Below are positions 6,921 through 58,368 of a DNA stretch of 64,000 bases, piece after piece. The first letter of the stretch is position 1, and each line of letters opens with the position of its first letter. Source of the DNA: Paracoccus methylovorus (GTDB lineage Bacteria; Pseudomonadota; Alphaproteobacteria; Rhodobacterales; Rhodobacteraceae); contig NZ_CP070371.1 of NCBI RefSeq assembly GCF_016919705.1, forward strand, positions 1,269,501 through 1,333,500. The letters are read 5' to 3'. The notes beneath the pieces were generated by a model. The model saw only the letters and a list, made by a program, of their open reading frames with translations. It had not been told where the DNA came from and made no database searches. Made by a program: the position numbers and the translations under genes.

Positions 6921-8150
6921 TCAGGTGCGAATATCGGCGCCAAGGTGCTTGGCGACGGTGAAGATATCCTTGTCGCCCCGGCCCGACAGGTTGACGACCA
7001 TGATGTGATCGCGGGGCAGGTCCGGCGCGATCTTGATGACATGCGCCAGCGCGTGGCTGGGCTCCAGCGCCGGGATGATGCCTTCAAGCCGGCAGAGGGT
7101 CTGGAAAGCCGTCAGCGCCTCATCATCGGTGACGCTGACATATTCGGCGCGACCCTGTTCCTTCAGCCAGGCGTGTTCCGGGCCGATGCCGGGATAGTCG
7201 AGCCCGGCGCTGATCGAATGACCTTCAAGGATCTGCCCCTCCTCATCCTGCAAAAGATAGGTGCGATTGCCATGCAGCACGCCCGGGCGGCCTCCGGTCA
7301 GGCTGGCGCAATGCTGCATACGGTCGTCAACGCCCTTGCCGCCAGCCTCGACGCCGATGATGCGGACCGAAGGATCGTCGAGGAACGGATGGAACAGCCC
7401 CATCGCATTCGAACCGCCGCCAATGGCCGCGACCACGCTGTCGGGCAGCCTGCCCTTGCCCTCTTGCTCTTCAAGCTGCCAGCGGGTCTCGCGTCCGATG
7501 ATGCACTGAAAATCGCGAACCATGGCCGGATAGGGATGCGGGCCGGCAACGGTGCCTATACAATAGAACGTGTCACGCACATTGGTCACCCAGTCGCGCA
7601 AGGCGTCGTTCATCGCGTCCTTGAGCGTGCCACGCCCCGAGGTGACCGGCACCACCTCGGCCCCCAGCAGCCGCATGCGGAAGACGTTCGGAGCCTGACG
7701 TTCGACATCATGCGCGCCCATGTAGACCACGCATTGCAGCCCAAAGCGGGCGCAGACCGTCGCGGTCGCCACGCCATGCTGGCCAGCGCCGGTTTCGGCG
7801 ATGATGCGGGTCTTGCCCATGCGGCGCGCCAACAGGATCTGGCCCAGCACGTTGTTGATCTTGTGGCTGCCGGTATGATTCAGCTCTTCGCGCTTGAGAT
7901 AGACCTTGGCCCCGCCGAGCTCCTCGGTCAGGCGCGGCGCGAAATACAGCGGGCTGGGTCGGCCCACGTAATGTTTCCAGAGCTCGTCCATTTCGGCCCA
8001 GAAGCTCGGGTCGTCCTTGGCGTGCTCGTATTCGGCCTGAAGGGCAAGGATCAGCGGCATCAGGGTTTCACTGACGAAACGGCCACCGAAGATGCCGAAA
8101 CGACCCTGTTCGTCCGGGCCGGTCATGAAGCTGTTGATGAGATCGGCCAT
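6921..8150 (-). CDS. trpB: Tryptophan synthase beta chain
   Basis: 409 aa from the ATG at 8150, preceded by GAGGAAAG; an in-frame start 13 codons upstream would add a basic, poorly conserved tail. TrpB joins indole and serine using PLP to give tryptophan. The PLP lysine is in [11 protein letters not shown] and the phosphate-binding loop in [27 protein letters not shown] is also diagnostic. No trpA or trpF is adjacent in this window, which is unusual for alphaproteobacteria where trpF-trpB-trpA are often together. Confidence 0.97.
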
Positions 8151-8594
8151 GGCTTTCCTCGCGCGTGGTGGGAATGGGTATTTGGGCAACGAAGAAGCCC
8201 CTTAGAGCGATTTCTTATATCCGATACGGGAGGGGGTAAAGCCGAGCTTGTCGTGGAGGCGTTCCGGGGACTGCTTGGGTTCCGTTCCGGTCTTCTGAGA
8301 GCGATGCTCGCCATCAGGGAAACCAGGGCCGCGAGAAACGGGCTATGAGTTCATGCAGGATGCGGTTCGCATTGCGCTGGCTGGCGATTTGACAAGATGG
8401 CGGGTTTCCGATTTGGGGATTGGTCGCGCCCCACTTGCCAAACCGATCAGGCCATTTTCCGAAGAACCGACTACCCCTGCGCGGGAGCTGAGTGGCTGGG
8501 TGAGAACGACGTTGCGCAACTCGTAGCGAGGCCCCCGTCGGACGTCGTGGGGAACCGGCCATGCAAATGAGGACACAAGGCCAAAGGGAAATAT
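8151..8594. other. Intergenic region upstream of trpB
   Basis: About 440 bases. It holds the trpB leader and a weak copy of the dispersed repeat (8176-8202). I see no supported gene; short overlapping frames on the minus strand have no ribosome binding site or recognisable domain. Confidence 0.5.
8176..8202. repeat. Terminator-linked intergenic repeat, partial copy C
   Basis: GGGTATTTGGGCAACGAAGA followed by AGCCCC. It matches the tail of copy D (33706-33738) closely and copies A and B loosely. No adjoining GC hairpin is present. Confidence 0.4.
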
Positions 8595-9146
8595 TCAGGG
8601 CTTCATACGGCGGGGCAACGCGTGATCTGCCACCAGCCTGGATAGAACCTTGCAGATATGCCTGGCGTCTTCGGGCAGCATATCGGCACGATCTGGGGCT
8701 TGAAGGTCCAGCACCAGGCGCGCCGCATCCTCCAGGGTTCTCTCGCCGCCAAGCTGAGATGCTGGCGGAAGCGACCGGATTAGGGCTTCCAGCACCTCGA
8801 CCTCGATCCGCTCCGCCATCAGTTCCTGCGCCTTGATGGCCTCTCGCAGGGCGGGCACGCGCGCACTCCAAGCCATAACGTCGCCAGATTTCATCGCCGT
8901 CCTGATCCGGCGCAAGGGGCGGACCACGGTTTTCCGCCACTCTGCGCAAGAAGCGTCCAACGCCTGCACCGCGACTGCATCGAGCGCCCTGTCAGATACC
9001 GCCCCGTAAAGGACGGCGAGCAGCAGCGGAATATCCAGACCATATGTCTCTTGCAAGCGCAGGCAGGCAGAGGCCACCCCGGGCGAGGCATAGATCCTCG
9101 ACATGAAGGGCCAAAGCTCGGTCATCCCATCGCTGTCAGTAGCCAT
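8595..9146 (-). CDS. TIGR02444 family protein
   Basis: 183 aa from the ATG at 9146, chosen for the GGGAGGAC site upstream; a 42-residue upstream extension is not protein-like. The opening ELWPFMSRIYASPGVASACL and DIPLLLAVLY are typical of this small conserved family of unknown function found in proteobacteria. It is mostly helical, with no signal peptide or membrane segment. It lies downstream of the dehydrogenase operon in the same direction, but 147 bases apart, so operon membership is uncertain. Confidence 0.75.
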   Translation of the reverse strand: MATDSDGMTELWPFMSRIYASPGVASACLRLQETYGLDIPLLLAVLYGAVSDRALDAVAVQALDASCAEWRKTVVRPLRRIRTAMKSGDVMAWSARVPALREAIKAQELMAERIEVEVLEALIRSLPPASQLGGERTLEDAARLVLDLQAPDRADMLPEDARHICKVLSRLVADHALPRRMKP

Positions 9147-9293: not shown

Positions 9294-10676
9294 TCACGGC
9301 CCCTCACCAACGAGATCGGCGACCTCGCCCAGGCTTACCGGGCGCAGAGGCGGGCGGACGGTAAGCCAGCCCGCCTCCTCCATGGTCATGCCGCGCATCT
9401 GGGCCGTCAACTGCGCCAGGGTCGGGCCGCAGATCCGGCCCTGACAGGGTCCCATGCCGCAACGCAGGAACGCCTTGAGTTGGTTCGGCCCGGCATTGCC
9501 GGCGGCAAGGCTTGCCCGGATCTCGCCACAGCGCACCTCCTCGCAGCGGCAGGCGACGACTTCGTCGGGCGGCATCATTACGTCGGGTGCCGGGTGATAA
9601 AGGCGCTCGATCAGCGGGCGGGCGGCAAGATGCGCGCGGCGCGCACGATGCGTGGCCGAGACCAGCAGCGGATCGACCGCGCGGCCGAGGCGATCCAGAA
9701 TGGCCATGGCAGCGATGCGCCCTTCGAGCAGGGCCACCGTTGCCCCGCCGATCCCGCCGGCATCGCCTGCGACATGGACATGGCTCAACGAACTGCGCAG
9801 GTCGCGATCCCGATCCGGGTGGAAGGCGGTGGCGGTTTGCGACCAGACCATCCGGCACCCCAGGCTGCGCAGCAGATGGGTTTCGGGAATAATCCCTTCA
9901 TGCAGGCCAATCCGGGACAAGCGTAGTGTGTGTGGACCCCGGCTGAAGAAGCTCAGAACCAAATCGCCCTGCGCGTCGGGTTCGATCCTGATCTCGCGGG
10001 CACCGGCATGGGTGGGAATTCCCCCCCGGCGCAACCGCCACAACAGCCCGGCGCCCTTGGCGAGGTAAGCCGGGCCGCGTCCCAGCAGCGCACGCGGCAG
10101 ATGCCGTAGGGCCGCAAACATGGCCCCCGGACGGCCGGTATCGACAAGTACCAGATCGCGCTTGCCCGCTGACAGGCATTGCGCCGCATAGAGATAGACG
10201 AGCGGCCCCGTTCCCACCAGCGCAAGCGGCCCCTGAGGCAGCATCCCCTCGCGCTTGAGCAGGATTTGCAGGCCGCCGATGGTTGTCACCCCCGGCAGCG
10301 TCCAGCCGGGCAGCGGGACCGGCCGCTCCATCGCGCCGGTAGCGATCAGCAAATACCGGGCCGTTTCGCGGCGCAGGCCCCGCGCATCCCTCAGCCAGAC
10401 CACACCGTCAGGCTCAACCCGCCAGGCTTCGGTCGAGAAGGCAAGGGAAGCACCGCTGGCCCGCAGCCGCGCCACCTCCGCGGCTCCGGCCCGGTAATCG
10501 GGGCCAAGGATGGCTGCGCGGCCGGGGGGCGCCGTCTCGATTCCGCGCCAGATCTGGCCGCCGGGACCGGGTGCCTCGTCGATAAGCAAAACGCGCGCGC
10601 CCCCTTCCGCCAGAAGGCTGGCACCGCCTATTCCAGCCGGGCCGGCGCCGATGACAATCGCGTCCCACACGCTCAT
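9294..10676 (-). CDS. FAD-dependent dehydrogenase subunit with C-terminal BFD-like Fe-S domain (HcnB/LhpF-like)
   Basis: 460 aa. An N-terminal Rossmann motif (DAIVIGAGPAGIGGASLLAE) and an internal GDAGGIGGATVALLEGRIA mark an FAD/NAD-type oxidoreductase. The C-terminus has a BFD-like [2Fe-2S] module: CRCEEVRCGEI followed by CGMGPCQGRICGP. This domain order is that of HcnB, opine oxidase subunit A and D-hydroxyproline dehydrogenase subunits. The start overlaps the stop of the upstream [2Fe-2S] gene by ATGA. With the two preceding genes it should form a membrane-linked or electron-acceptor-coupled amino-acid dehydrogenase. Confidence 0.85.
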   Translation of the reverse strand: MSVWDAIVIGAGPAGIGGASLLAEGGARVLLIDEAPGPGGQIWRGIETAPPGRAAILGPDYRAGAAEVARLRASGASLAFSTEAWRVEPDGVVWLRDARGLRRETARYLLIATGAMERPVPLPGWTLPGVTTIGGLQILLKREGMLPQGPLALVGTGPLVYLYAAQCLSAGKRDLVLVDTGRPGAMFAALRHLPRALLGRGPAYLAKGAGLLWRLRRGGIPTHAGAREIRIEPDAQGDLVLSFFSRGPHTLRLSRIGLHEGIIPETHLLRSLGCRMVWSQTATAFHPDRDRDLRSSLSHVHVAGDAGGIGGATVALLEGRIAAMAILDRLGRAVDPLLVSATHRARRAHLAARPLIERLYHPAPDVMMPPDEVVACRCEEVRCGEIRASLAAGNAGPNQLKAFLRCGMGPCQGRICGPTLAQLTAQMRGMTMEEAGWLTVRPPLRPVSLGEVADLVGEGP

Positions 10677-10981
10677 TCCTCCGTGCCTGCAGCATCGCGC
10701 CGGGCGCCGATCTGGCGTCGCACCTGCATCCCGGCCCGCGCGGGCACCATGCAGGCGCGCTGGTTTTCCCGGCCATCTATGCTGACGAGACAGTCGAAGC
10801 AGACGCCCATCAGGCACCAAGGTCCGCGCGCGGCGCCGGAGGCCGGGGTTTCACGGAAACTCGTGATCCCGGCAGCCATCAACACGCCGGCCACGGTTTC
10901 ACCCGGCCAGAACCGCAATGGCTGCCCCTCGAAGAGCAACTCGGCACCCGCCTCGGGCGCAAGGGGATCAAGCCGGAACAT
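10673..10981 (-). CDS. Small [2Fe-2S] subunit of an HcnABC/LhpBEF-like dehydrogenase
   Basis: 102 aa with the four cysteines in [16 protein letters not shown] and RACMV, which is the plant-ferredoxin-like ligand pattern of HcnA-type subunits. The ATG at 10981 lies inside the 3' end of the upstream oxidase gene (14-base overlap), and the stop overlaps the downstream start (ATGA). It should pass electrons from the flavin subunit. Translational coupling of the three genes supports one heteromeric enzyme. Confidence 0.85.
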
Positions 10982-12083
10982 GGGCAAGGCGCGCACTCCG
11001 CATGGATTGGGGGGCGGCACCAAGATGGCCTTGGGCAAGGGCCGGGCCAAGTTCGAGCGCATGTAGGCTCGCCAGCGTAACTCCGCTGTGACAGGTGACG
11101 AGGAAGGCCCCCGGCATCTCGGGCGATTCGTCATAGATCGGCAGGCCGTCGGGCGACATGATCCTGAGGGCGGCCCAAGCCCGGATCAGCCGTGCCGCGC
11201 GCAGCGCCGGAAAAAGCCGCGTGCCGATGCGGCAAAGCCGGGCGATGGCTTCAACATCGGTCGCGGTGGAAAAGCCGGCGTCCTCATGCGTGCTGCCAAG
11301 CAAAACCGTGCCTTCGCGGCTTTGGCGGATGGCGCTGGCAGGATGGTGCAGAAAGGGCGCCACCCGGTCGGTAACGACGATCTGTCCGCGTTCGGGCACA
11401 AGATGCGGCTCAAGCCCCACCTGACGCGCCAGTGCATTTGCACCAAGGCCGGCTGCGATCACGACCCGGCGACCCGCGACTTCGGTCCCCGAGGCATCGC
11501 GGATCACGAAGCCCCGGCGCGGATCGCGTCGGATTTCGCGCGCCGAAAAATTGACCCGAAGCCGGCCGCCGTGCCGCACCAGCCCCTCATGAAAGGCGCG
11601 CAGGGCAAACTGCGGACTTACCTCGCCATCGAGGTCTGAAAGCGAGGCACCCAGCACCTCGGGGCCGATCCCGGGGGCAATCTCGCGCAGGGCATCGCGG
11701 TCGAGCAACTCGATGCTTATGTCGGCGGCTTCGGCACGGGTGCGGGCGATCAGCGACCGACGCTGCTCCAACTCCTCTGCCGAGCAGCAGAAATGCAACC
11801 CGCCACCGCCCCGCCAACCGATGTCGATCCCGCTTTCCTCCGCCAGAATGCGGGCAAGTTCGGGCCAGCGCCTGCCCGCACGGATCGACCAATGCATGTA
11901 TTCAGGATGACCCAGCCCCTTGCCTTGCAGCCAGACCAGACCGAAATTCCCGCGCGACGCGCGAAAGGCGATGTCACCTTCGTCCAGCAGGGTTACATCG
12001 GCCCCCGCTCGTGCCGCGCCCCAGGCAAGGGCAGCGCCGATCAAGCCGCCACCGATGACGACCAGTTCGCCGGCCGCAATCAT
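10968..12083 (-). CDS. DAO-family FAD-dependent oxidoreductase (HcnC/LhpB-like catalytic subunit)
   Basis: 371 aa from the ATG at 12083, which overlaps the stop of the racemase-like gene (ATGA). It opens with an FAD-binding motif, [20 protein letters not shown], followed by [18 protein letters not shown]; the C-terminal half has [14 protein letters not shown] and [16 protein letters not shown], the usual DAO-fold closing motif. Homologues oxidise glycine, sarcosine, D-proline, D-hydroxyproline or opines at the C-alpha/amine. The substrate here is not known. A much longer open frame upstream is an out-of-frame overlap with the racemase gene and was not used. Confidence 0.87.
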
Positions 12084-12793
12084 CCCGCCCACTCCTCGGG
12101 TTGCAGGGACAGATGCATCCAGCGCACAAGCGTGACGATATCGAATACGGGAAGGCCGAAGCGACGCGAAACCGCAGCCGAATAAGGCGGCAGATTGGCG
12201 CATTCGAAGACCAGCGCACCGATCTCTGGGTGACGGGCCAGCAAACCGGCGGTCGCGGCCATCACGTCGGCCTCTTGCGCAGGGCGATCCACCTCGGGCG
12301 CATGTTCGCGCATGTTGCGCAGCAGGGGGCCATCGAAGGGCAGCGCCGCCATGGGCAGCCCGGAGGTTACACCCACGCCGCGAAAATGCCGGGCATCCAG
12401 CGCCGAGGAATCCGAGACGATCAGCCCCGGCACGCGGCCCACGGGCAGGATGCGCTGGATCATCGGAATCTGGAGCAGCGCCGAGGATAGGAAGGGCACC
12501 GGAGAATGCCGGGTCAACTCGTCCTGAAGCGCGGCAAGAAACCCGCAACTCGTGGTGATCGCCGAACAGCCGAGCTCTGCCAGCTCGTCGATGGCGGCGC
12601 GGAAGGCATCGAGCGAATGACGCGGATCGCCTTCGATAACGTCGCGCGGCCTGACCCCGCGCACGACCCGGAACTGGACCGGAAAGGGCCAGGTGCCGGT
12701 ATGGGCGATGTCGCCCGGCAGGCGACAAAACCCCGTGTCCAGCACGATGATGCCAAGCATCACACCATGAATCGCGCGGCGACCTGAGGTCAT
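12080..12793 (-). CDS. Asp/Glu/hydantoin-racemase superfamily protein
   Basis: 237 aa. Two cysteines sit in the positions expected for a cofactor-independent racemase, maleate isomerase or arylmalonate decarboxylase: [10 protein letters not shown] (near residue 84) and [12 protein letters not shown] (near residue 200). It overlaps both neighbours by ATGA-type junctions, placing it between UbiX and the oxidase. In this context an epimerase that feeds the right enantiomer to the dehydrogenase is the simplest reading, but a non-oxidative decarboxylase is also possible. Confidence 0.72.
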
Positions 12794-13383
12794 GGCATCT
12801 CTCCGGCAAGGGCGTTCTTCAGCCCATTCCAGCGTCGCACCGCCCCGGTGTCGACATCAAAAAGGTCGAGCGCCCGCGCAGTGGAGTGCGTCACGACCTC
12901 CTCCAGATCCTGCGGCTTGGTGTAGAATGCGGGCACGGGGGGCATGATGATCGCGCCCATCTGCGTCAGTCGCGTCATCGTCTCCAGATGACCCAGATGC
13001 AGCGGCGTTTCGCGCAGCATCAGGACCAGCCGTCGACGTTCCTTGAGCACGACATCCGCAGCACGGCTCATCAAGGTCGAGGTAACGCCGGTGGCAATCT
13101 CGGACATGGTCCTGACAGAGCAGGGCGCAATCAACATTCCCATGGTGCGAAACGAACCCGAGGCAATGCTGGCACCGATGTCGGCCACTGGATGCATAAA
13201 ATCCGCACGACCATCCAGATCGGCGCTTTTCAGGCCCAGTTCCTGATTCAGCGTCAAGAGGGCCGAGCGGGACACCACCAGATGGGTTTCCACCCCCGCC
13301 CCGCGCGCCAATGCCAGCGCCGCAATGCCATAGGCGGCACCCGAAGCGCCAGAGATACCGATGACGAGCCGCCGCACAGTCAT
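12790..13383 (-). CDS. ubiX: Flavin prenyltransferase UbiX/Pad1
   Basis: 197 aa. It prenylates reduced FMN to prFMN, the cofactor of UbiD decarboxylases. Signatures: [15 protein letters not shown] at the N-terminus, [17 protein letters not shown] in the middle, and [17 protein letters not shown] near residue 145. The start at 13383 (upstream frame ignored) is two bases from the preceding ubiD stop, so the pair is co-translated. Because its partner is local, this copy probably serves the catabolic UbiD rather than ubiquinone synthesis. Confidence 0.93.
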
Positions 13384-13384
13384 C

Positions 13385-14716
13385 TCAGAGCCCCGGGAAC
13401 CAGTCTTCGGCGCGGACTTCATCGCCTAGGCGCAGCCGTTTTCTCTCGAACTCGGCCTCCCGCCCCCAGGGTTTGGTGGCATCGACAAGCAGCCTGCCCC
13501 AATGATCCTTTTGTTCGTCACGATAGAACGAGGGGGTTTCGGGAATGATCATCATGTCCTTATCGGGACGGCAGCGGGTCAGGATCGCCCATTGCACGTC
13601 GTCCATGTCGTAGATGTTCACATCGGTATCGACCACGGTGATCTGCTTGGCCCAGATCGGCTCGGCACCGATGGTGGCCAACATGACCTGTCGGGCGTGG
13701 CCTTCGAACTGCGGTTCGATCTGCACGACGGCATGGTTCACGAAGGGCTGGCAGGTCACGTTCACGATGCCGGGCAAAGCCGCGGAAAGCCGCTGGTAGA
13801 TATTGGCCGAGACCGAAAGCTCCAACGTCAGCACCTCTTCGGGCGAACCGCAGAGGATGGAGTGAAACAACGCATCCTTGCGGACCGTGACGCCCAGCAC
13901 CTCGAAGACGGCATTCGGCGCCTCGGCCACATAATAGCCCATGAACTCGCCAAAGGGGCCCTCGGGCAGGCGGACGTTGGGCAGGAAGCGACCCTCGATC
14001 ACCACCTCGGTCTCGGCCGGCACTTCAAGATCGATATGGTTGCACTTGCGCATGGGGATGGGCTTGCCGCGCAACCGCGCCGCGACCTCAAGCTCATCCA
14101 CATCATAGGGCAAAGGTGCGGCTGCGGTAAGAAAGGCGTGGGCCGGCGGTCCGATAAGCATCGCGGCTTCAAGCGGACGGCCCATCTTTTCGGCCTTCTC
14201 GTGATAGATCGTCAGATGGTGACGCGGTGCAAGGCGACAACGCAACTCACCGTCGTTGATATACATCGAGCGGTGATAAGAGAGGTTGCCCACGCCGGTT
14301 TCGGGATCTTTCGCAATGAACATGGCCGAGGTGAAATAAGCTCCGCCATCGCGGTCCGAATAGGTGATGAGCGGAAGATCGGAAAGCTTCACCTCTTCAT
14401 ACTCGGGCAGATCGGCCGCTGAGGCGGGCACGAGCGCATCTTGCATGTCGGCGGCGCCCAGCGAAGAAAGCCTGCTCCATTGCCGGCAGAAATCGGCAGA
14501 ATCGATGCCGATCACCTCGCCCAGCCGTTCACGCGTGCTGTAGACATTGCTTACCACCGGAAAGCTTGTGCCCTTCACATTGGTGAACATCACCGGCTTT
14601 GCCCATTTTTTCTGCGCAAGCTGGGTGACGGCGGCAAGCTCATGCGCCGGATCGATCTCACGATCGACGACCAGCAGGTCGCCACGGGCTTTGAGCTTGT
14701 GGACGAATTCTCTCAT
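13385..14716 (-). CDS. UbiD-family prFMN-dependent decarboxylase
   Basis: 443 aa, normal for the non-oxidative decarboxylase branch of UbiD. Recognisable segments are VTQLAQKKWAKPVMFTNVKG near the start, EGPFGEFMGYYVAEAPNAVF in the middle and the VGNLSYHRSMYIN loop. Family members reversibly decarboxylate aryl or alpha,beta-unsaturated acids such as 4-hydroxybenzoate, protocatechuate and ferulate. RBS AAGGAGG lies at good spacing. It is the first enzyme gene of the leftward operon, directly after the GntR gene. The true substrate cannot be read from sequence. Confidence 0.9.
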   Translation of the reverse strand: MREFVHKLKARGDLLVVDREIDPAHELAAVTQLAQKKWAKPVMFTNVKGTSFPVVSNVYSTRERLGEVIGIDSADFCRQWSRLSSLGAADMQDALVPASAADLPEYEEVKLSDLPLITYSDRDGGAYFTSAMFIAKDPETGVGNLSYHRSMYINDGELRCRLAPRHHLTIYHEKAEKMGRPLEAAMLIGPPAHAFLTAAAPLPYDVDELEVAARLRGKPIPMRKCNHIDLEVPAETEVVIEGRFLPNVRLPEGPFGEFMGYYVAEAPNAVFEVLGVTVRKDALFHSILCGSPEEVLTLELSVSANIYQRLSAALPGIVNVTCQPFVNHAVVQIEPQFEGHARQVMLATIGAEPIWAKQITVVDTDVNIYDMDDVQWAILTRCRPDKDMMIIPETPSFYRDEQKDHWGRLLVDATKPWGREAEFERKRLRLGDEVRAEDWFPGL

Positions 14717-14752
14717 GTCGGCCTCCTTCGGGTATTTCCCTGGATGGTGGGA

Positions 14753-15505
14753 TCAGCGCGCTTTTCCGCCTTGCAGCGTGGGAACGATGCGGTTGGAACG
14801 CGCCTCGTGGGTAGAGCGCAGGCGATAGCGGTCGCCGGGATAAATGAAGCGGCTGCGCGTCACAGGGATACCGTCCCGCCACGTCGAACGATCAAGCAGC
14901 AGGCAGGGCTGGTTCTCGTCGATCTGGAGGTGCTTGCGCACTTCCTCGTCGGCGCGGATGGCGCGGATGGTGTTGTCCACCGTCGTCACGGTGGTCTCGC
15001 GCAAAAGCCAATTGTGCGGGGTGAAACGAGAGAAATCCTGCTCCAGATACGCCGGCGCCTCGGCAGCGTTCACATAGCGGTCCTCAAGCTGGATCGGCGT
15101 GCCATCTTCAAGATGCAGCAGGCGCGAGTGAAAGACGGTATCGTCCGGTGCAAGCTGCAGCATGTGCCGCCCCGGGCTGTCGCGCCCCAGGATCGCATGA
15201 TGCAGAACCCGGCAGGAATGCGCTCCGCCCGAATAGGCGATCTCTTCGGAAATATCAGGCAGGTTGAAGACTGCACATTGCATGCGCGGCCCGATCACGA
15301 AGGTGCCCCTTCCCTGGATGCGCAACAGCACCCCGTCAGCCTGCAATTCGCGCAACGCCCGACGCACGGTCAGCGGCGAGGCCCCGAATTCGCCCGCCAG
15401 ATCCTCTTCCGAGGGGACCTGGAAGTTCGCAGGCCATTCCTCGGCCTCGATCCGTCGGTCGATTGCGCTTTTGATCTGTTCGTAAAGGGGTTGATCCGTG
15501 CTCAC
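14753..15505 (-). CDS. GntR/HutC-family transcriptional regulator (UTRA domain)
   Basis: 250 aa from a GTG at 15505; a TTG at 15517 is also possible. The N-terminal winged helix (LYEQIKSAIDRRIEAEEW, then EFGASPLTVRRALRELQADG) is followed by a UTRA effector domain (about residues 95-245; LHLEDGTPIQLEDRYVN, DQPCLL-type core). UTRA repressors bind catabolic substrates. It sits at the head of the leftward operon and next to the divergent aldehyde dehydrogenase promoter, so it very likely controls both. Candidate operators are the AGTAATATCA repeats at 15518 and 15702. Confidence 0.9.
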   Translation of the reverse strand: MSTDQPLYEQIKSAIDRRIEAEEWPANFQVPSEEDLAGEFGASPLTVRRALRELQADGVLLRIQGRGTFVIGPRMQCAVFNLPDISEEIAYSGGAHSCRVLHHAILGRDSPGRHMLQLAPDDTVFHSRLLHLEDGTPIQLEDRYVNAAEAPAYLEQDFSRFTPHNWLLRETTVTTVDNTIRAIRADEEVRKHLQIDENQPCLLLDRSTWRDGIPVTRSRFIYPGDRYRLRSTHEARSNRIVPTLQGGKAR

Positions 15506-15517
15506 TGCAACATCCAA

Positions 15518-15527
15518 AGTAATATCA
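15518..15527 (+). promoter_or_regulatory. Candidate GntR operator, repeat 1 (AGTAATATCA)
   Basis: Ten-base sequence repeated exactly at 15702-15711. This copy lies immediately upstream of the regulator's coding start, suited to autoregulation. Confidence 0.4.
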
Positions 15528-15689
15528 CTATTGATGCGTTATCACCCTATGCTTTCTTACAATGCAAGCAAAATCGACGCGGTTTAGGCCCGACTTTCTC
15601 ACGAATTGGACCGAAAAGAGACATCCTTCAGCATTATTGCCTAATTTTTAATCAAAATGCCCTATCTTGCATATCTCCAAAGTCTATTG

Positions 15690-15722
15690 TTGACAGACAT
15701 TAGTAATATCATTTTGTATGCT
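15690..15722 (+). promoter_or_regulatory. Promoter with embedded operator repeat 2
   Basis: TTGACA (15690-15695) is a good -35 element, with an A/T-rich region and TTGTAT/TATGCT-like -10 candidates at 15714-15722. The second AGTAATATCA copy (15702-15711) lies in the spacer, where a bound repressor would block the rightward operon. Confidence 0.45.
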
Positions 15723-15800
15723 AAGACATATGGTAGCTGAGTCGTATTCACGATGTAACCTCGGCACCACCAGCAGAAGCCCTGCAAGAATGGAGTGACC

Positions 15801-17291
15801 ATGTCCACGGAAAGCCTGCCGAAACTGTCCATGTATATCGATGGCCAATGGGTCGCCCCCACTTCGGGGGAGTATCTTGAGACGGTGGACCCCTATACGG
15901 CCAAACCCTGGGCACTGGTTCCGCGCGGCAATGCCGAAGATGCCGACCGCGCCATCCAGGCAGCACACCGCGCCTTCAAGGAAGGGCCGTGGGGCAGGAT
16001 GCACCCCAGCGCGCGGGGCCGCATCATTTCGAAATTCGGCGACCTGATCGAGGCCAATGCCGATGCGCTGGCCGAGATCGAGGTTCGCGACAACGGCCGC
16101 CTGCTGGCCGAAATGCGCCATCAGATCCGCTATATCCCGCGCTGGTATCACTATTACGCCGGTCTTGCCGACAAGATCGAGGGGGCCGTGCATCCCTGCG
16201 ACAAGGACGCGCTGAGCTTTTCGCGTCACGAACCGCTAGGCGTCTGCGTTGGCATCGTGCCGTGGAACGCGCCGCTGTTCCTGTTCTCGCTCAAGGCCGC
16301 GCCGGCGCTGGCCGCGGGTTGCACGCTGGTGATGAAACCGGCCGAATATACATCGGCCACTGCGCTCAAACTGATGGAGTTGGTCGACGAAGCCGGCTTT
16401 CCGCCGGGAGTCATCAACGTCGTCACCGGCTACGGCCCGGAGGTGGGTGAACCGCTGGTCACCCATCCCTTGACACGACACGTCGGCTTTACCGGCTCGA
16501 CTAAGACCGGCGCGCATCTCTATTCTCTGGCGGCAAAGGACATCAAGCGTGTCAGTCTGGAACTGGGCGGCAAATCTCCGAATATCGTCTTCGATGACGC
16601 CAACCTGGACAATGCCGTGCGTGGCGTGGTCGGGGGCATCTTTGGCGCCGTGGGCCAGACCTGCATCGCCGGCTCGCGGCTATTGGTGCATCGCAAGGTG
16701 CATGACGAGTTTCTGGAAAAACTCACTGCCTTCACGACGACCGCCCGCATCGGCGACCCCAAGCACATGGAGACCCGCATCGGCCCAATCGCCAATGCGA
16801 TGCAATATCAAAAGGTGTTGGATTATATCGATATCGCCGGCAAGGAAGGCGCCGATCTGATCCTGGGCGGCAAGCGTCCTAACATTGAAGAATGCGCCAG
16901 CGGCTTCTTCATCGAACCTACGATTTTTGCCGGCGTGAACAATGACATGCGCATCGCCCGCGAAGAGGTCTTCGGCCCCGTGCTGGCTGCCATCCCTTTC
17001 GATGAACCCGAAGAGGCCATCGCCATCGCCAATGACAGCGAATTCGGCCTGGCCGCCGGGGTCTGGACCGCCGATATGCGCCGCGCGCTGCTGATGTCCC
17101 AGCGCATCGAAGCGGGCAGCGTCTGGGTCAACACTTATCGGGATGTTTCCTATACCACGCCCTTCGGCGGCTACAAGAAAAGCGGCATCGGTCGCGAGAA
17201 CGGCATCGAGGGTATCCGCGAGTTCCTCCAGACCAAGGCCATTTGGCTTTCGACTGCCGAGGAAATCGCCGACCCCTTCGTCATCGGGTGA
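15801..17291 (+). CDS. Aldehyde dehydrogenase (NAD(P)-dependent)
   Basis: 496 aa from the ATG at 15801 (GGAG at good spacing; an in-frame GTG two codons earlier is less likely). Catalytic Cys is in GAVGQTCIAGSR (near residue 290), the general base Glu in LELGGKSPNIVF (near residue 256), and the NAD loop in GFTGSTKTGAHL. It resembles the class that oxidises aromatic and amino aldehydes to acids. It is the first gene of the rightward operon and stands 5 bases from the TPP enzyme, which would produce an aldehyde from a 2-oxo acid. Confidence 0.93.
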   Translation: MSTESLPKLSMYIDGQWVAPTSGEYLETVDPYTAKPWALVPRGNAEDADRAIQAAHRAFKEGPWGRMHPSARGRIISKFGDLIEANADALAEIEVRDNGRLLAEMRHQIRYIPRWYHYYAGLADKIEGAVHPCDKDALSFSRHEPLGVCVGIVPWNAPLFLFSLKAAPALAAGCTLVMKPAEYTSATALKLMELVDEAGFPPGVINVVTGYGPEVGEPLVTHPLTRHVGFTGSTKTGAHLYSLAAKDIKRVSLELGGKSPNIVFDDANLDNAVRGVVGGIFGAVGQTCIAGSRLLVHRKVHDEFLEKLTAFTTTARIGDPKHMETRIGPIANAMQYQKVLDYIDIAGKEGADLILGGKRPNIEECASGFFIEPTIFAGVNNDMRIAREEVFGPVLAAIPFDEPEEAIAIANDSEFGLAAGVWTADMRRALLMSQRIEAGSVWVNTYRDVSYTTPFGGYKKSGIGRENGIEGIREFLQTKAIWLSTAEEIADPFVIG

Positions 17292-17296
17292 ATATC

Positions 17297-18991
17297 ATGA
17301 GAAAAGGTGCAGAAATCCTTGCCGACGAACTGGCGCTGAACGGTGCGCAGATTGTCTATCACGTGCCGGGCGAGAGTTTTCTTCTTGCGCTCGACGCCTT
17401 GGCGACGCGACACCCCGAGATCCGCGCGATCAGTTGCCGGCATGAAAACGGCGCGGCGCAGATGGCCGAGGCGCATGGCAAGCTGACAGGCCAGCCGGGC
17501 GTTGCCTTCGTTACCCGCAGCCCCGGCGCCACCAACGCGGTCAATGGCGTCCATACCGCCTTCCAGGACAGTTCGCCCATGATCCTGATCGTGGGACAGG
17601 TAAAACGCGCGATTCTGGAACGCGAAGCCTTCATGGCCTATGACTTCCGCACGATGTTCGCCCCCATGGCAAAATGGGTGGCGCAGATCGACGACCCCGC
17701 CCGTATACCCGAATTCGTTCAGCGCGCCTGGGCCACGGCGCTGTCTGGGCGGCGCGGGCCGGTGGTGCTCGTCGTTCCCGAGGACGTGCTGGAGGAGTAC
17801 TGCGATGTCGCCCCCTCGATCCGGCCCGCAAGCGCGTCCCATGCAGGCGCCCCACGCCAACAGGATCTTGAGCGTATTTTCGGAATGCTCGGCGAAGCCG
17901 AACGGCCGCTGGTCGTCGTCGGCGGCTCGGATTGGAGCGAGACCGCGCGCGAGGACATCCAGAGCTTTGCCACCCGCTTGGGCCTGCCGGTGGTGACGAC
18001 GTTTCGCCGCCGCGACATCATCGACCACCGCCTGGACTGCTATGCCGGCGAAATCGGCATCGGCTCGAATCCCGCGCTTCTTGCCCATATCAAAGAGGCG
18101 GACTTCGTGCTGATGCTCAACGACGCGCTGAGCGACGTGAACACCATCGGCGCAGGTTATATGGAGGGGTTCACGCTTTTCTCGATCCCTCACCCCAAGC
18201 AGAAGATCGTCCATGTCATGGCCGACCATGCCGACCTGAACCGGGTGTTCCAGGTTGACTTGGCCCTGGTCGCCGACAACGACGCCACCGCCGGTGCGCT
18301 GGCAGGTCATGATGCCCGCCCGGTCCCCACGCATGCGGAATGGACCGCCAAGCTGCGGGCAACCTTGCTGGCAGAGCGCGAACCCCAGCCCTGCCCCGGC
18401 GCGATCGACCTGCCCGGGGTAATGGGCTGGTTGCGTGAGCGCTTGCCCGAGGACGCCATCGTCACCAACGGGGTCGGCGCCTATGCTACCTGGAGCCAGC
18501 GCTATTTTCCGCATTACCGGCTACACACCCAGCTTGGTCCCATCAGCGGCAGCATGGGCTATTCCCTGCCCGCGGCCATAGCGGCGAAACTGGCCTATTC
18601 CGAACGGGTGGTGGTGGATTTCGTGGGGGACGGCTGCTTCCAGATGAGCAGCGAGGAACTGGCGACGGCCGTGCAATACGGCGCCAATATCGTCATCCTG
18701 CTTTTCAACAACGGGCTTTACGGCACGATCCGCATCCATGAGGAAAACCGCCTGAATGGCCGCGTGAACGGCACGGACCTGACCAATCCCGACTTCCTGC
18801 TGCTGGCGCAAGCTTATGGCGCCCATGGCGAGCGGGTGACCACGACCGAGGAGTTCGCCCCGGCCTTTGAGCGAGCCTTGGCTGCCGGAAAGCCTGCCCT
18901 GATCGAGATGATCATCGACCCCGAGGCGATCCATTGCCGCTATTCCCTTAGCGATCTTCGCGCACGCCGTGCAGCGCGGGCGCCTGACTGA
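17297..18991 (+). CDS. Thiamine-pyrophosphate-dependent enzyme (acetolactate synthase/benzoylformate decarboxylase-like)
   Basis: 564 aa with the three-domain TPP layout. The cofactor-activating Glu is in SCRHENGAAQMAEA (near residue 51), the central domain runs about 190-320, and the TPP/Mg motif is VVDFVGDGCFQMSSEELATA with LLFNNGLYGTIRIHEEN, about residues 435-480. It is annotated generically as acetolactate-synthase-like, but the absence of a small subunit and the location next to an aldehyde dehydrogenase favour a 2-oxo-acid decarboxylase. Five bases separate it from the upstream stop. Confidence 0.85.
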   Translation: MRKGAEILADELALNGAQIVYHVPGESFLLALDALATRHPEIRAISCRHENGAAQMAEAHGKLTGQPGVAFVTRSPGATNAVNGVHTAFQDSSPMILIVGQVKRAILEREAFMAYDFRTMFAPMAKWVAQIDDPARIPEFVQRAWATALSGRRGPVVLVVPEDVLEEYCDVAPSIRPASASHAGAPRQQDLERIFGMLGEAERPLVVVGGSDWSETAREDIQSFATRLGLPVVTTFRRRDIIDHRLDCYAGEIGIGSNPALLAHIKEADFVLMLNDALSDVNTIGAGYMEGFTLFSIPHPKQKIVHVMADHADLNRVFQVDLALVADNDATAGALAGHDARPVPTHAEWTAKLRATLLAEREPQPCPGAIDLPGVMGWLRERLPEDAIVTNGVGAYATWSQRYFPHYRLHTQLGPISGSMGYSLPAAIAAKLAYSERVVVDFVGDGCFQMSSEELATAVQYGANIVILLFNNGLYGTIRIHEENRLNGRVNGTDLTNPDFLLLAQAYGAHGERVTTTEEFAPAFERALAAGKPALIEMIIDPEAIHCRYSLSDLRARRAARAPD

Positions 18992-19086
18992 GCACCTGAA
19001 AACCGCCGCGCCCGCCGCAGAAGCGGGCCGGCAGAACCCGTGGGCGGCGGACCCGCCCCCTCTTCATTCTCCAACAGGAGTCCCCC

Positions 19087-20109
19087 ATGAACACCAAACA
19101 TCTCCTAGCCGGCCTCGCCCTTTCGACCTTCTGGGTCGGCACAGCTTCGGCACAGGATTGCATGCTGCGCGTCACCACCTGGGGCGGCAGCTATCAGGCC
19201 ACCTACGAATCCGTGGCCGAAGCCTTTGAAAAGGTAAATAACTGCCGCATAGAATGGGTCGTGGGCTCAAGCCCCGATCACTTGATCAAAGCTCGGCTTG
19301 GTCAGGTGGATGTGGTGACCAACACCCTCCTCAACTCCATCGCCGGCGAAAAAGAGGGACTTTGGGCGCCGCTCGACCCGCAGAAAATTCCGAACATGGC
19401 CAATCTCTATGACAACGCCGTCTATTCGGACTACACCATCTTTGCCAATGTCGGCGACTACGTGCTGGCCTATAACACCGACCAGATATCGGAACCGCCC
19501 ACCAGTTGGGATGCGCTGTGGGATGCCGACTACAGAAGCGCGGTGGTGATCTATGGCATCGATCATATCCCCGCGCTTAGCCTGACGGTGATGGAGGCCG
19601 AGCAGAACGGCGGCAGCATCGACGACATCGAACCGGGCCTCGACCGCATGGCCGAACTGTTCAAGAACGGCAACCTGATCGGCGCGCTGGATGTGGAAAG
19701 CCAGATGGTATCGCTGTTCGAGACCGGGGACGCCTGGATCGGGATGATGGCCACCGGGCGGATGCGCGATCTGCTGTCGAAAGGCGCCGATAACATCGCC
19801 TTCGTGCGCCCGGACGAGGGCACCTTCCCGCTTATCTCGACCATCAATATCCACAAGGATGCGACCAATCTCGACATGGCGGCGAAGTTCGTGGACTACG
19901 TTCTTAGCCCCGAGGTCCAGGTCGCCTTCGCGACACACAATCTTTATGCACCCACGGTGAAAAATGCCGAGGTGCCCGAGGATACCCCCTATCGCGACCT
20001 GTTGGTGATGGGCGACGCCTTCGAACGTCTCTACCTGCCGGATCAGGAAAAGATCACCGCCAACAAGGCCAGCTGGCAGCAACGTCTGAATCAGAAAATC
20101 GGGCGCTGA
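19087..20109 (+). CDS. ABC transporter substrate-binding protein (PotD/polyamine type)
   Basis: 340 aa exported protein with signal peptide (cleavage near TASA-QD, residue 21). CMLRVTTWGGSYQATYESVA is the usual opening of the spermidine/putrescine-like solute-binding family, and LISTINIHKDATNLDMAAKF matches its C-terminal lobe. RBS AACAGGAG. It binds a cationic or amino-type solute in the periplasm for the ATPase and permeases that follow. Family members also carry opines, thiamine and modified amino acids, so specificity is open. Confidence 0.88.
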   Translation: MNTKHLLAGLALSTFWVGTASAQDCMLRVTTWGGSYQATYESVAEAFEKVNNCRIEWVVGSSPDHLIKARLGQVDVVTNTLLNSIAGEKEGLWAPLDPQKIPNMANLYDNAVYSDYTIFANVGDYVLAYNTDQISEPPTSWDALWDADYRSAVVIYGIDHIPALSLTVMEAEQNGGSIDDIEPGLDRMAELFKNGNLIGALDVESQMVSLFETGDAWIGMMATGRMRDLLSKGADNIAFVRPDEGTFPLISTINIHKDATNLDMAAKFVDYVLSPEVQVAFATHNLYAPTVKNAEVPEDTPYRDLLVMGDAFERLYLPDQEKITANKASWQQRLNQKIGR

Positions 20110-20186
20110 GCGGTTTCAATCCCGTGGCGGCCCAACCGGCCGCCACGATCCCCAGGGCCGGCAACCGCCGAAAGAATCAGGATGAA

Positions 20187-21281
20187 ATGCAGCCTATGTC
20201 CGACGATGCCATTCAAGTCCAGGGAGTCCTGAAGAGCTACGGCACCATGCTGGCCGTGGACGATGTCTCCTTCAATGTCGCCGAGGGCGAGTTCGTTTCG
20301 CTTCTTGGCCCCAGCGGCTGTGGCAAGACCACGACGCTGCGGATGATTGCGGGCTTCACCGACACCTCCGGCGGTGCGATCCGCGTGCATGGCCGCGAGG
20401 TCACCCACCTGCCCCCCGACAAGCGCGATCTGGGTTTCGTGTTCCAGAACTATGCGCTCTGGCCGCATATGACGGTGGCCGAGAACGTGGCGTTCGGGCT
20501 GAAACTGCGACGCAAACCGCGTGATGTCATCCGCAGCAAGATCGAGGAGGCGCTGTCGGTTACCGGTCTCTCGGGCTACGAGGACCGTCTGCCGCGCCAG
20601 CTTTCGGGCGGGCAGCAGCAGCGGGTGGCGCTTGCCCGAGCATTGGCGCTTGAACCGCAGGTGCTGCTGATGGATGAGCCGCTGTCGAACCTCGACCGCG
20701 CGCTGCGCGTGGTCATGCGCCGCGAACTCAAGGAGTTGCAGGCACGCATGAAGATGACGACGCTTTATGTGACCCATGATCAGGAAGAGGCGCTTTCCAT
20801 GTCAAACCGGGTCGTGATCATGAATCGCGGCAGGGTCGAACAGATCGCCGCGCCCTATGAGCTTTACGAAAATCCCGCCACCAGTTTCGTCGCGGATTTC
20901 GTAGGTATCACGAATTTCCTCGAAGGCACCGCCAGCGATACACAGGGCGGGATCGTCGGGGTGCGTCTGGCCTCGGGCCAGATGCTGCATGCACAGGCAC
21001 GCGTGCCGGTAGCGCAGGGAGGTGCGGTACGCGCATTGATCCGCCCCGAGCGGGTGACGATCTCTGCCACCGAACTTTCGGGCCCCAATGTGCTGGCCGG
21101 CAGTGTCGCGCTTTCTGAATATTTCGGCGCTGTGCTGCGTTATACTGTCCGGCTCGACAGCGGCGAGATCCTGCGCGCCGAGGTGCATAATTTCGATAAC
21201 TTCCTCGCGGGCGGCAGCAGGGTCTGGATCTGCGTACTGCCCGAGCATCTGCGGGTGATCCCGCATGATCCGCGAGGCTGA
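20187..21281 (+). CDS. ABC transporter ATP-binding protein (PotA type)
   Basis: 364 aa from the ATG at 20187 (CAGGATGA upstream); an ATG three codons later is an alternative. Walker A GPSGCGKTT, Q-loop FVFQNYALWPHM, signature LSGGQQQRVALARAL and Walker B VLLMDEPLSNLD are intact. A C-terminal TOBE domain (about residues 270-360) fits the polyamine/opine importer class. It powers the two permeases downstream. Confidence 0.95.
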   Translation: MQPMSDDAIQVQGVLKSYGTMLAVDDVSFNVAEGEFVSLLGPSGCGKTTTLRMIAGFTDTSGGAIRVHGREVTHLPPDKRDLGFVFQNYALWPHMTVAENVAFGLKLRRKPRDVIRSKIEEALSVTGLSGYEDRLPRQLSGGQQQRVALARALALEPQVLLMDEPLSNLDRALRVVMRRELKELQARMKMTTLYVTHDQEEALSMSNRVVIMNRGRVEQIAAPYELYENPATSFVADFVGITNFLEGTASDTQGGIVGVRLASGQMLHAQARVPVAQGGAVRALIRPERVTISATELSGPNVLAGSVALSEYFGAVLRYTVRLDSGEILRAEVHNFDNFLAGGSRVWICVLPEHLRVIPHDPRG

Positions 21282-21284
21282 GCG

Positions 21285-22145
21285 ATGATCCGACGTCTGC
21301 TCCCCCCGCTGGCCCCCGCACTTATCGCGCTGCTGATCTTTGTCGCTTTGCCCATGCTGTGGGTATTGCGCACCAGCTTCAACGAACTTGGCGATGGCGC
21401 CTATGTTGTCGAGGCGATGACGCTCGACAATTATATCCGTTTCCTGGGCGACCCCTGGTACCTGGTGAACACGCTCTGGTTTTCGATCCGCATCGCGGTT
21501 GTGGCAACGGCAATCTCGGTCATATGTGCCTATCCGGTCGCGCTTTACATCGTGAAAACCACCGGGTTGCAGCGCAATATCCTGATGGCACTGATCATGG
21601 CCCCGCTGCTGATCGGTCTGGTAACCTTGGTCTATGGCTGGATCGTGATCTTCCGCGGCGGCGGGCTGCTCAATTCCTTGATGATCGCGCTGCATGTCTA
21701 TGACCGGCCGGTGCGCTACATGTGGGACATCAAGGGGGTGGTGATCCTGCTGGTCTATATCGGCGCGCCCTATGTGGTGTTGTCGCTGCTCGACAGCCTC
21801 GAACGCCTCAACCCCTTCTTGGTCGAGGCCGCACGCAATGTCGGCGCCAGCCGCTGGACCGCCTTCTGGAAGGTGGTCTTCCCGATGACCATGCCGGGGC
21901 TTTATGCCGCTCTCGTCATCGTCTTTTCGCTGAACTTCTCGGCTTTCGCGGTGCCGCTGATGATCGGCAACAGCAATACGCAGATGATCGGCCTGATCAT
22001 CTATCGCGAGGCGCTGCTGAACAATGATCTTCCCTTCGCCTCGGCGCTGTCGGTGATCATGGTGGCAGTGAACGCACTCATCCTTGTAGGCATGGCCGCT
22101 CTTTTCGGTCGGATCATTCTCAACCGACTGGAGGCAAAGCGATGA
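21285..22145 (+). CDS. ABC transporter permease (PotB type)
   Basis: 286 aa with about six membrane segments and the EAA loop in FLVEAARNVGASRWTAFWKVV (near residue 180), which docks to the ATPase. It starts three bases after the ATPase stop and overlaps the next permease by ATGA, so the transporter is translationally coupled. Confidence 0.93.
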   Translation: MIRRLLPPLAPALIALLIFVALPMLWVLRTSFNELGDGAYVVEAMTLDNYIRFLGDPWYLVNTLWFSIRIAVVATAISVICAYPVALYIVKTTGLQRNILMALIMAPLLIGLVTLVYGWIVIFRGGGLLNSLMIALHVYDRPVRYMWDIKGVVILLVYIGAPYVVLSLLDSLERLNPFLVEAARNVGASRWTAFWKVVFPMTMPGLYAALVIVFSLNFSAFAVPLMIGNSNTQMIGLIIYREALLNNDLPFASALSVIMVAVNALILVGMAALFGRIILNRLEAKR

Positions 22146-22936
22146 CGCGGCTTGATCTTGGCACGATTGCCCTGCGATTTTTCACGCTGCTGATGATGGC
22201 CTTCCTGATCTTCCCGATCGCTGTCACGCTGATCGTGGCGGTCAACCCGCGCGAGTTCATCCTGCCGCCGAACGGTTTCACGCTGGATTGGTTCAAGGCC
22301 GCATGGAGTTCCAAGACCTTCCTGCGCGGCATGGGGGTCAGCCTTGTCCTTGGCATCGTGGCAGCCACGCTGGCCAATGCGCTGGCGCTGCCCGCAGCCA
22401 TGGCGCTGGTGCGCAATGATTTTCGAGGCAAGGGCGCGATCAACCTTCTGCTGATGTCGCCGCTGCTGATCCCGACGACCATCTTCAGCCTGGCGCTCTA
22501 TATCTGGTTTGTACGGGTGGGATATGGCTCCGGCCTCGTGCCGCTGCTGGTGGGGCATACGATCCATATCATGCCTTATGCGCTGCGCATCCTGACGGCG
22601 AGCCTGCACAATCTCGATCCCAGCTATGAAGAGGCCGCGCAAAACGTGGGCGCGGGCCGCATTCGGACGCTGTTCTCGATAACGCTGCCGGTGATCCGCA
22701 CCGGGCTGATCTCAAGCTTCGCGCTGTGCTTCATCCTGTCCTGGAACGACTTTCCGATCTCGGTGTTTCTTGCACCGCCAGGCTGGACGCCGCTGCCGGT
22801 CGAGCTCTTCGCCTATATCAAATTCCAGTACGACGCGGTGGCAGCGGCGCTGGCAGGATCGCTCATCTTACTTTCGGCAGTCGCCATGGTGGTCATTGAC
22901 CGGCTGGCGGGCCTGCGGCGGGTCCTGCGTTCCTGA
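22142..22936 (+). CDS. ABC transporter permease (PotC type)
   Basis: 264 aa, six predicted membrane helices, EAA motif in YEEAAQNVGAGRIRTLFSI near residue 160. It is the second half of the heterodimeric membrane channel. FALCFILSWNDFPISVFLAP is typical of PotC/opine permeases. The stop is followed after about 50 bases by the RidA gene. Confidence 0.93.
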   Translation: MTRLDLGTIALRFFTLLMMAFLIFPIAVTLIVAVNPREFILPPNGFTLDWFKAAWSSKTFLRGMGVSLVLGIVAATLANALALPAAMALVRNDFRGKGAINLLLMSPLLIPTTIFSLALYIWFVRVGYGSGLVPLLVGHTIHIMPYALRILTASLHNLDPSYEEAAQNVGAGRIRTLFSITLPVIRTGLISSFALCFILSWNDFPISVFLAPPGWTPLPVELFAYIKFQYDAVAAALAGSLILLSAVAMVVIDRLAGLRRVLRS

Positions 22937-22987
22937 CCTGCACCACACGGGACCGCATATGTGCAATCCAACCCACGGAGTTTTCGT

Positions 22988-23371
22988 ATGAAAAACCGCA
23001 TTTTTACCGGCGCACCCTCCGAGACGCTTGCCGGTTACGCCAAGGCTGTCATTGTCGGAACAACAATCCATGTCTCGGGCACGACCGGTCGCGACCCTCT
23101 GACCAACCTCTTTCCCGAGGATGCGGGACAACAGGCGCGCAACGCGCTGACCTCGATCGACGCAGCCCTTCGCGAGGCTGGGTCAAGCCTTGCAGATGCC
23201 GTCGTCAGCCGGGTCTACGTGACCGACCCGGAAGCCGCGGCGGCCGTAAGTCCGGTTCTTGGCGAGGTCTTTGCGGACATCCGCCCGACAAGCACATTCC
23301 TGATCTGCCAAATCCCGGCACCGGGCGCGAAAGTCGAGATCGAGATCACGGCGTCCAGAAATATCGCTTAG
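22988..23371 (+). CDS. RidA/YjgF family imine deaminase
   Basis: 127 aa from the ATG at 22988 (CACGGAG upstream), the standard RidA size. IHVSGTTGRDP is the N-terminal signature; residues around 100-110 include RPTSTFLICQI, where archetypal RidA has the Arg that orients the imine carboxylate, so the Arg appears retained. RidA proteins hydrolyse 2-imino acids to 2-oxo acids. As the last gene of the import/oxidation locus it is well placed to process the imine made by the HcnABC-like dehydrogenase. Confidence 0.88.
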   Translation: MKNRIFTGAPSETLAGYAKAVIVGTTIHVSGTTGRDPLTNLFPEDAGQQARNALTSIDAALREAGSSLADAVVSRVYVTDPEAAAAVSPVLGEVFADIRPTSTFLICQIPAPGAKVEIEITASRNIA

Positions 23372-46366: not shown

Positions 46367-46422
46367 TACCGCACCCTGTGTCCATCAGCCGCGACGGTGT
46401 CGCCCGTTTCTAGAGTGTGTCC

Positions 46423-58355: not shown

Positions 58356-58368
58356 TATAGAAAGTGAT

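Follow-up and report, generated by a model that had tools for sequence, protein, structure and literature searches.

A candidate horizontally spread UbiD/UbiX module leading from an amino acid to a decarboxylated ring in Paracoccus methylovorus

Gene content and control of the locus

We analysed a 64,000-nucleotide stretch of Paracoccus methylovorus (contig NZ_CP070371.1, positions 1,269,501 to 1,333,500; the window), which contains a regulated unit of about 15 genes that includes a predicted UbiX flavin prenyltransferase and a UbiD decarboxylase dependent on prenylated flavin mononucleotide (prFMN). A sequence-only reading had proposed here two divergent operons that break down an aromatic or heteroaromatic amino acid by a route ending in UbiD. 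Pfam and NCBIfam profile searches, complemented by codon checks, placed every gene it named at its coordinates (the second permease by its open reading frame and position; start codons are our choice). An eighth leftward gene, encoding a DUF2390/TIGR02444 protein, had been overlooked. Window coordinates are as follows.

8595-9146, minus strand: DUF2390/TIGR02444 protein, possible UbiX/UbiD accessory, all-helical model (predicted local distance difference test score 91); NCBIfam 104 bits against a cut-off of 48.3, PF09523
9294-10676, minus strand: FAD/NAD(P)-binding subunit with a BFD-like [2Fe-2S] region (amine dehydrogenase alpha); Pyr_redox_2 and SO_alpha_A3 above cut-off, Fer2_BFD slightly under (25.5 bits against 26)
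10673-10981, minus strand: [2Fe-2S] ferredoxin-like subunit; Pfam Fer2_4
10968-12083, minus strand: DAO-family FAD subunit (amino acid/amine dehydrogenase beta); Pfam DAO
12080-12793, minus strand: Asp/Glu/hydantoin-racemase family PRK07475 protein, likely the racemase feeding the dehydrogenase; profile search
12790-13383, minus strand: UbiX flavin prenyltransferase; NCBIfam PRK06029 and ubiX_pad above cut-off
13385-14716, minus strand: UbiD prFMN-dependent decarboxylase, nearest HmfF and AnInD; the three UbiD Pfam domains (N, rift and C) above cut-off, TIGR00148 314 against 245 bits
14753-15517, minus strand: HutC-like GntR/UTRA regulator; TIGR02018 261 against 220 bits
15518-15529, no strand: operator-like palindrome, copy 1, AGTAATATCACT; motif scan
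15702-15713, no strand: operator-like palindrome, copy 2, AGTAATATCATT; motif scan
15795-17291, plus strand: aldehyde dehydrogenase (ALDH); Pfam Aldedh, E 2e-177
17297-18991, plus strand: thiamine pyrophosphate (TPP) enzyme, PRK08199 subfamily, proposed 2-oxo-acid decarboxylase; NCBIfam 800 against 539 bits
19087-20109, plus strand: ATP-binding cassette (ABC) importer binding protein, PotD-related, without PotD Glu171/Asp257; profile and alignment
20196-21281, plus strand: ABC importer ATPase; profile
21285-22145, plus strand: ABC importer permease 1; profile
22142-22936, plus strand: ABC importer permease 2, an open reading frame at the conserved position of the annotated P. denitrificans permease
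22961-23371, plus strand: RidA-family protein, proposed imine hydrolase; PF01042, Rid family TIGR00004 below cut-off

The regulator had been placed between two operons. The arms are indeed divergent, but the GntR gene itself heads the leftward operon, 36 bp from UbiD, and is followed by UbiD, UbiX, the racemase-like gene, DAO, [2Fe-2S], FAD/BFD and DUF2390. The junctions from UbiX to the BFD subunit overlap by 4, 4, 14 and 4 bp, as had been noted. Rightward, ALDH is followed by the TPP enzyme, binding protein, ATPase, two permeases and RidA. Identical gene order is seen in other bacterial orders, which is beyond chance. A trpB-like gene, judged by eye (6921-8189), lies immediately downstream of the leftward operon on the same strand.

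A second HutC model, NF011575, scored below its cut-off for the regulator (200 against 424 bits), and profiles and annotation placed no hut enzymes among the locus genes. Palindromes of the type AATGATATCATT, matched at 10 or more of 12 positions, occurred 65 times in 37 GntR-ALDH intergenic sequences, whereas 30 shuffles gave 2.4 and never more than 9. These 37 sequences, from which the motif had itself been derived, contain near-identical strains as well as two copies that are duplicates. At least two copies were present in 25 of the 37, whereas a strict scan found none in the stretches of loci L025, L030-L032, L035, L036, L039 and L041, of which L035 and L039 gave weak sites in a looser scan. 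Across the window, six strand matches compare with 0.37 expected, two of them being a one-mismatch site at 58363. The palindrome is common to both kinds of loci described below and rare elsewhere in the genomes searched: six other genomes or records held nine exact copies, six of them in the main intergenic region. In the Chelativorans locus, one exact copy precedes a second GntR/UTRA gene; the remaining two, which lie elsewhere in Brucella pseudogrignonensis, were taken, without a test, as chance. The simplest reading is that one HutC-like repressor would act on both arms. Using the palindrome as a regulon route to ring-cleavage genes was abandoned: exact sites in the window genome lie only at the two locus positions, and allowing one mismatch gave 14 forward and 14 reverse matches in all.

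Co-occurrence, a second front end and distribution

Genome contigs searched with UbiD contained 153 confirmed stretches, the best 80 of which yielded 79 loci. UbiD was at least 70% identical in 44, of which the 35 wide-flank genome-contig loci were counted; the nine left out were short, truncated or annotated-record copies. The earlier reading required that left and right operons co-occur in other genomes, and they do. Scoring the left arm by racemase and DAO subunit and the right arm by TPP enzyme and binding protein, 12 loci had both, three had the left without a complete right, none had the right only and 20 had neither (Fisher p 5e-7, related loci being counted as independent). Among the three, L027 and L036 have a TPP orthologue (73-74%) at the edge of the same stretch, and L039, from P. 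xenovorans LB400, combines the left arm with a TPP enzyme and other oxidase and importer clusters. At the level of genomes, of which 24 out of 25 were searched, a TPP enzyme of at least 70% identity was present in all nine with racemase and DAO and in none of the 15 others, 13 of which have relatives of 47-49% and two none at threshold. In a plasmid collection, all 23 records with a TPP enzyme of at least 60% (18 S. meliloti, 5 Paracoccus) also hold UbiD of at least 60%; 25 records hold such a UbiD, two of them outside the 23.

The 20 loci without a left arm all keep UbiX, and 17 keep ALDH and GntR within the fetched stretch. A single-subunit DAO-family oxidase (cluster c6) is present in 17 of the 20, accompanied by a polar amino-acid-type importer (SBP_bac_3) in 15 and a betaine-type importer (OpuAC) in two; the nearest solved proteins to the S. 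meliloti c6 oxidase are sarcosine and glycine oxidases. S. meliloti holds both front ends (L085, L091). In the c6 loci that have no left arm, identity to the window proteins is 80-93% for UbiD and 79-90% for ALDH where the stretch includes it, making it likely that both front ends give the same aldehyde and acid. The TPP enzyme appears specific to the racemase and dehydrogenase front end, consistent with a 2-oxo acid decarboxylation. The idea of a single chain ending in UbiD thus holds in part: the arms co-occur, but 17 of 35 loci pair UbiD with another oxidase and importer, and a search of 15 genomes without a left arm found no TPP orthologue, which ties UbiD to the aldehyde/acid step rather than to the whole chain.

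Other combinations were seen around UbiD. In Ancylobacter mangrovi, an NCS2 xanthine-permease-like nucleobase transporter gene lies near UbiD/UbiX (L030, 13318-15015). Three Burkholderiales loci (L077, L071, L088) pair a UbiD of 48-49% with a TPP enzyme of 45-46%; those of them that were profiled also have a monoamine-oxidase-type flavoprotein, a porin and an ABC_sub_bind-type importer, with an AtuA-like gene in L077 and a PRK07475 racemase in L088. In L060, a 50% UbiD relative stands beside hydantoinase A/B, copper amine oxidase and HpaB-type hydroxylase genes; L064 and L067 share its gene clusters, with UbiD at 50% (profiling in L060 only).

Among the matches listed, the closest named relatives of the window UbiD are in Paracoccus. 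The protein is 89-95% identical in P. denitrificans, Aureimonas, several Mesorhizobium, Chelativorans, Shinella and others, and 79% identical in two further Mesorhizobium strains. UbiD is plasmid-encoded as well, on plasmid 1 of P. denitrificans PD1222 and, in S. meliloti, on pSymA and further plasmids; PD1222 and S. meliloti 1021, which carry the locus, are both laboratory strains. On a 73-kb mobilizable P. pantotrophus plasmid, the RidA-to-DUF2390 unit is flanked by an IS5-like transposase gene and by repair/recombinase genes, after which come conjugation genes. On the annotated sister plasmid pMl1 the order is FAD oxidoreductase, amino-acid importer, RidA, second importer, ALDH, hutC, UbiD, UbiX, racemase, oxidase subunits, UTRA regulator and TIGR02444, with the TPP gene in an unannotated gap (tblastn). 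Brucella pituitosa has two locus copies on one contig (L026, L075), with UbiD at 83% and 82%.

A generally conserved pathway was rejected: among 61 genomes (the window's own, 36 of its genus and 24 of its class), UbiD reached E<=1e-60 in four: the window's own, a congener (91%), a third at 50% and a fourth in which the match was a 32% paralogue. In samples of 387 genomes of the class and 276 of the family, only the window genome matched UbiD (E<=1e-170) or the TPP enzyme (E<=1e-220). High identity combined with sporadic occurrence points to horizontal spread, although GC content (62.7% versus 62.4 and 63.5%) gives no compositional sign of transfer. The stretches fetched for 84 other loci contained no match to the two flanking genes tested, the trpB-like gene and the Abhydrolase_9 gene (23750-25507), and the site therefore differs. 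Elsewhere in the window, 46417-48351 encodes a 645-residue protein with a Hint domain.

UbiD pocket, amino acid dehydrogenase and DUF2390

UbiD keeps the Glu-Arg-Glu network (Arg149, Glu252 and Glu257, aligned to 6h6v and 7p9q). Its best solved match, over the whole length, is the furan-2,5-dicarboxylate decarboxylase HmfF (6h6v, E 4e-68), followed by the indole-3-carboxylate decarboxylase AnInD (7p9q, 6e-55), VdcC (4e-43) and AroY (3e-33). The furan-specific His of HmfF, H297 in PMC7976604 and taken as the same as residue 296 of the 6h6v chain by our count, is replaced by Glu294. When aligned through H297, Asn318 of the pyrrole-2-carboxylate decarboxylase HudA, as given in the available text on that enzyme, also corresponds to Glu294. 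Asp169 of AnInD, which binds indole according to the accessible part of PMC8988006, corresponds to Ala163. Glu294 is present in 35 of 35 rows of two close UbiD groups (28/28 and 7/7, one row being a duplicate), and the position is Asp in 14 of 14 members of a group at 45-52%; Glu299 is a second conserved acidic residue near the pocket. This conservation of Glu294 and Glu299 where the furan, pyrrole and indole enzymes differ makes a new acid substrate likely, and the pocket suggests a substrate ring carrying an N-H, OH or cationic group. A further UbiD (33%) of the window genome (contig C5, 136121-137347), accompanied by a UbiX of its own, may be a furan-acid enzyme because it keeps the furan-type His at the Glu294 position.

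For the three-subunit dehydrogenase, no close characterised relative was found: the best solved matches are glycine oxidases for the DAO subunit (E ~1e-23) and sarcosine oxidase alpha for the FAD/BFD subunit (E 2e-8). A clear best match to an unrelated substrate had been named as a reason to doubt the pathway, and the DAO matches give none. The PRK07475 protein has two catalytic Cys residues and the racemase fold and is likely the racemase that supplies this dehydrogenase.

DUF2390 lies inside 27 of the 35 UbiD loci; of 24 genomes searched, 22 encode it, and in 19 it falls within the UbiD locus as fetched. Of 40 genomes sampled elsewhere in Alphaproteobacteria, 23 have UbiX near DUF2390, versus 0 of 19 outside the class, where all 19 DUF2390 stretches share an ABC-F-like gene. 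In Pseudohalocynthiibacter pRR4-35_4 (L092), DUF2390 adjoins a 37% UbiD. This gene neighbourhood makes DUF2390 a possible UbiX/UbiD accessory, in the manner of LpdD, VdcD and PhdC; DUF2390/TIGR02444 is listed in two papers of the open-licence PMC literature, and the available portion of PMC10865409 states that further prFMN chaperones remain to be found. The L092 set is related yet different (UbiD, UbiX, DUF2390, D-glutamate-cyclase-like protein, racemase and aminotransferase), and its racemase is nearest EutA and arylmalonate decarboxylase, both below cut-off.

Proposed pathway, alternatives and known systems

In the pathway we propose, the ABC importer would take up a ring-bearing alpha-amino acid, and the racemase would supply the enantiomer that the three-subunit flavin/iron-sulphur dehydrogenase would oxidise to the 2-imino acid. 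RidA, where present, would accelerate hydrolysis of this imine, and the TPP enzyme would decarboxylate the resulting 2-oxo acid to an aldehyde; ALDH would turn the aldehyde into an acid, and prFMN made by UbiX would enable UbiD to strip the carboxyl from an unsaturated or aromatic carbon. In the sister loci, the single-subunit FAD oxidase and the other importer would start from an amine (R-CH2-NHR') and reach that aldehyde without the TPP enzyme. The HutC-like repressor would act on the two palindromes between the arms. This order would explain the enzyme types and the joint travel of the modules. Arylglycines or heteroarylglycines form the best structural class of substrate, rather than a result, since we could conceive of no other amino-acid shape from which a 2-oxo-acid decarboxylase and an ALDH would produce a UbiD substrate. 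Overall, we regard the chances as evenly balanced that the locus is a catabolic module, spread by horizontal transfer and controlled by a single repressor, that leads from an amino acid to a decarboxylated ring. We found no description of such a pathway in the open-licence PMC literature, in line with the earlier statement that no locus with exactly this set had been described.

Gene content, co-occurrence, the two front ends, the palindrome and the residue changes are read directly from sequence; the reactions, their order, the repressor site and the substrate class are inferred, each reaction from the protein family concerned. Several observations weigh against this pathway. The nearest solved relatives of the TPP enzyme are acetolactate synthases, with benzoylformate decarboxylases ranking lower. 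RidA is present in just 13 of 35 loci and would therefore be helpful at most; none is annotated in the P. denitrificans locus. In two or three loci, UbiD/UbiX is accompanied by an NMT1-like importer and both front ends are absent, and the paired presence of modules partly reflects shared ancestry. The unit has no ring-cleavage gene, which leaves the fate of the UbiD product unexplained, and free arylglycines are uncommon in nature.

The best placed alternative, though improbable, is a phenolic arylglycine, for instance hydroxyphenylglycine, with phenol as the end product. The chain logic is the same, hydroxyphenylglycine is degraded via hydroxybenzoylformate and hydroxybenzaldehyde, and the vanillate-type VdcC and VdcB are the second NCBIfam matches of UbiD (255 bits, cut-off 650) and UbiX (223 bits, cut-off 290), both below cut-off. 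However, among solved proteins UbiD is nearest HmfF and AnInD, with VdcC and AroY further off, and hydroxybenzoate is usually directly usable by aerobes via protocatechuate, so that a UbiD step would be wasteful. The earlier example of hydroxyphenylglycine, hydroxybenzoate and phenol is thus not specifically favoured.

We also consider it unlikely that the locus serves arginine or polyamine-type catabolism, in which a D-amino-acid dehydrogenase, an AruI-like TPP decarboxylase and ALDH would degrade a cationic aliphatic amino acid, with UbiD/UbiX serving another purpose. The binding protein, ATPase and ALDH belong to families with polyamine members, and the available text of PMC7268258 names S. 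meliloti SMa2203-9 potABCD4 (putrescine) and SMa2195-97 satABC (arginine) importers. As far as that text goes, these names rest on annotation and symbiosis transposon-insertion sequencing (TnSeq), and satABC deletion lowered nitrogenase activity by about 55%; satABC was mapped to the locus by order and numbering only, from a record without a gene table. Glu171 and Asp257 are strong spermidine contacts of PotD in the accessible part of PMC4096761. Of 18 binding-protein matches, 15 were used, the window's included: an acid at the Asp168 position is kept in 14, but the Glu171 position is Pro and the Asp257 position Ser/Thr in all 15 (Glu36 lies outside the aligned stretch). The absence of two contact carboxylates supports the original proposal, which a clear polyamine match would have refuted. 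Moreover, UbiD, among the most conserved parts, would be without a role.

Two further alternatives are very unlikely. A hydroxyproline-like imino acid pathway, with racemase and LhpBEF-like dehydrogenase making pyrroline carboxylate and UbiD removing by-product pyrrole-2-carboxylate, would suit the racemase and three-subunit arrangement, and UbiD enzymes acting on pyrrole-2-carboxylate exist (available text of PMC7976604), but the profiled or annotated locus genes include no proline-racemase-family epimerase or pyrroline-4-hydroxy-2-carboxylate deaminase, the HudA Asn318 position is Glu294, and the TPP enzyme and ALDH would have no place. A common aldehyde derived from an R-CH2-NH vitamin or base (aminomethyl pyrimidine, pyridoxamine, pterin), with the TPP front end used for another C-C cleavage, would suit Glu294/Glu299 near a pocket for an N-H rich ring and the NMT1/THI5-like importer in 4 of 35 loci, but is purely inferential and has no known alpha-carboxylated counterpart to explain the TPP arm.

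A fuller version of the amino acid to decarboxylated ring pathway is speculative and, taken whole, improbable: an undescribed prFMN pathway for a heteroarylglycine and its matching heteroarylmethylamine, in which Glu294/Glu299 would set UbiD specificity, DUF2390 would be an accessory and the S. meliloti importers would bring the compound into bacteroids. Ibotenate and muscimol are a natural pair of this type, cited here for type only and not found at the locus. If the proposed pathway is true, two interchangeable entry modules and one prFMN-dependent exit would be a new way to a bare ring, UbiD would have a new substrate, and doubt would fall on the substrates assigned to two S. meliloti importers that reportedly contribute to nitrogen fixation.

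In the mandelate/hydroxyphenylglycine route, a 2-oxo acid decarboxylase is followed by an aldehyde dehydrogenase, as in the middle steps proposed here; the window adds a racemase, RidA, the terminal UbiD/UbiX, an ABC importer and HutC-like control. Dehydrogenases of the HcnABC, LhpBEF and opine-oxidase type have the same three subunits (DAO, [2Fe-2S] and FAD/BFD), but their partner genes differ from those of the window. On S. meliloti pSymA, the gene order of SMa2207, SMa2209 and SMa2211, described as ATP-binding, solute-binding and TPP proteins in the available text of PMC12542648, matches the window locus, and potABCD4 and, judged by order and numbering, satABC, named as putrescine and arginine importers, sit in a UbiD catabolic locus.

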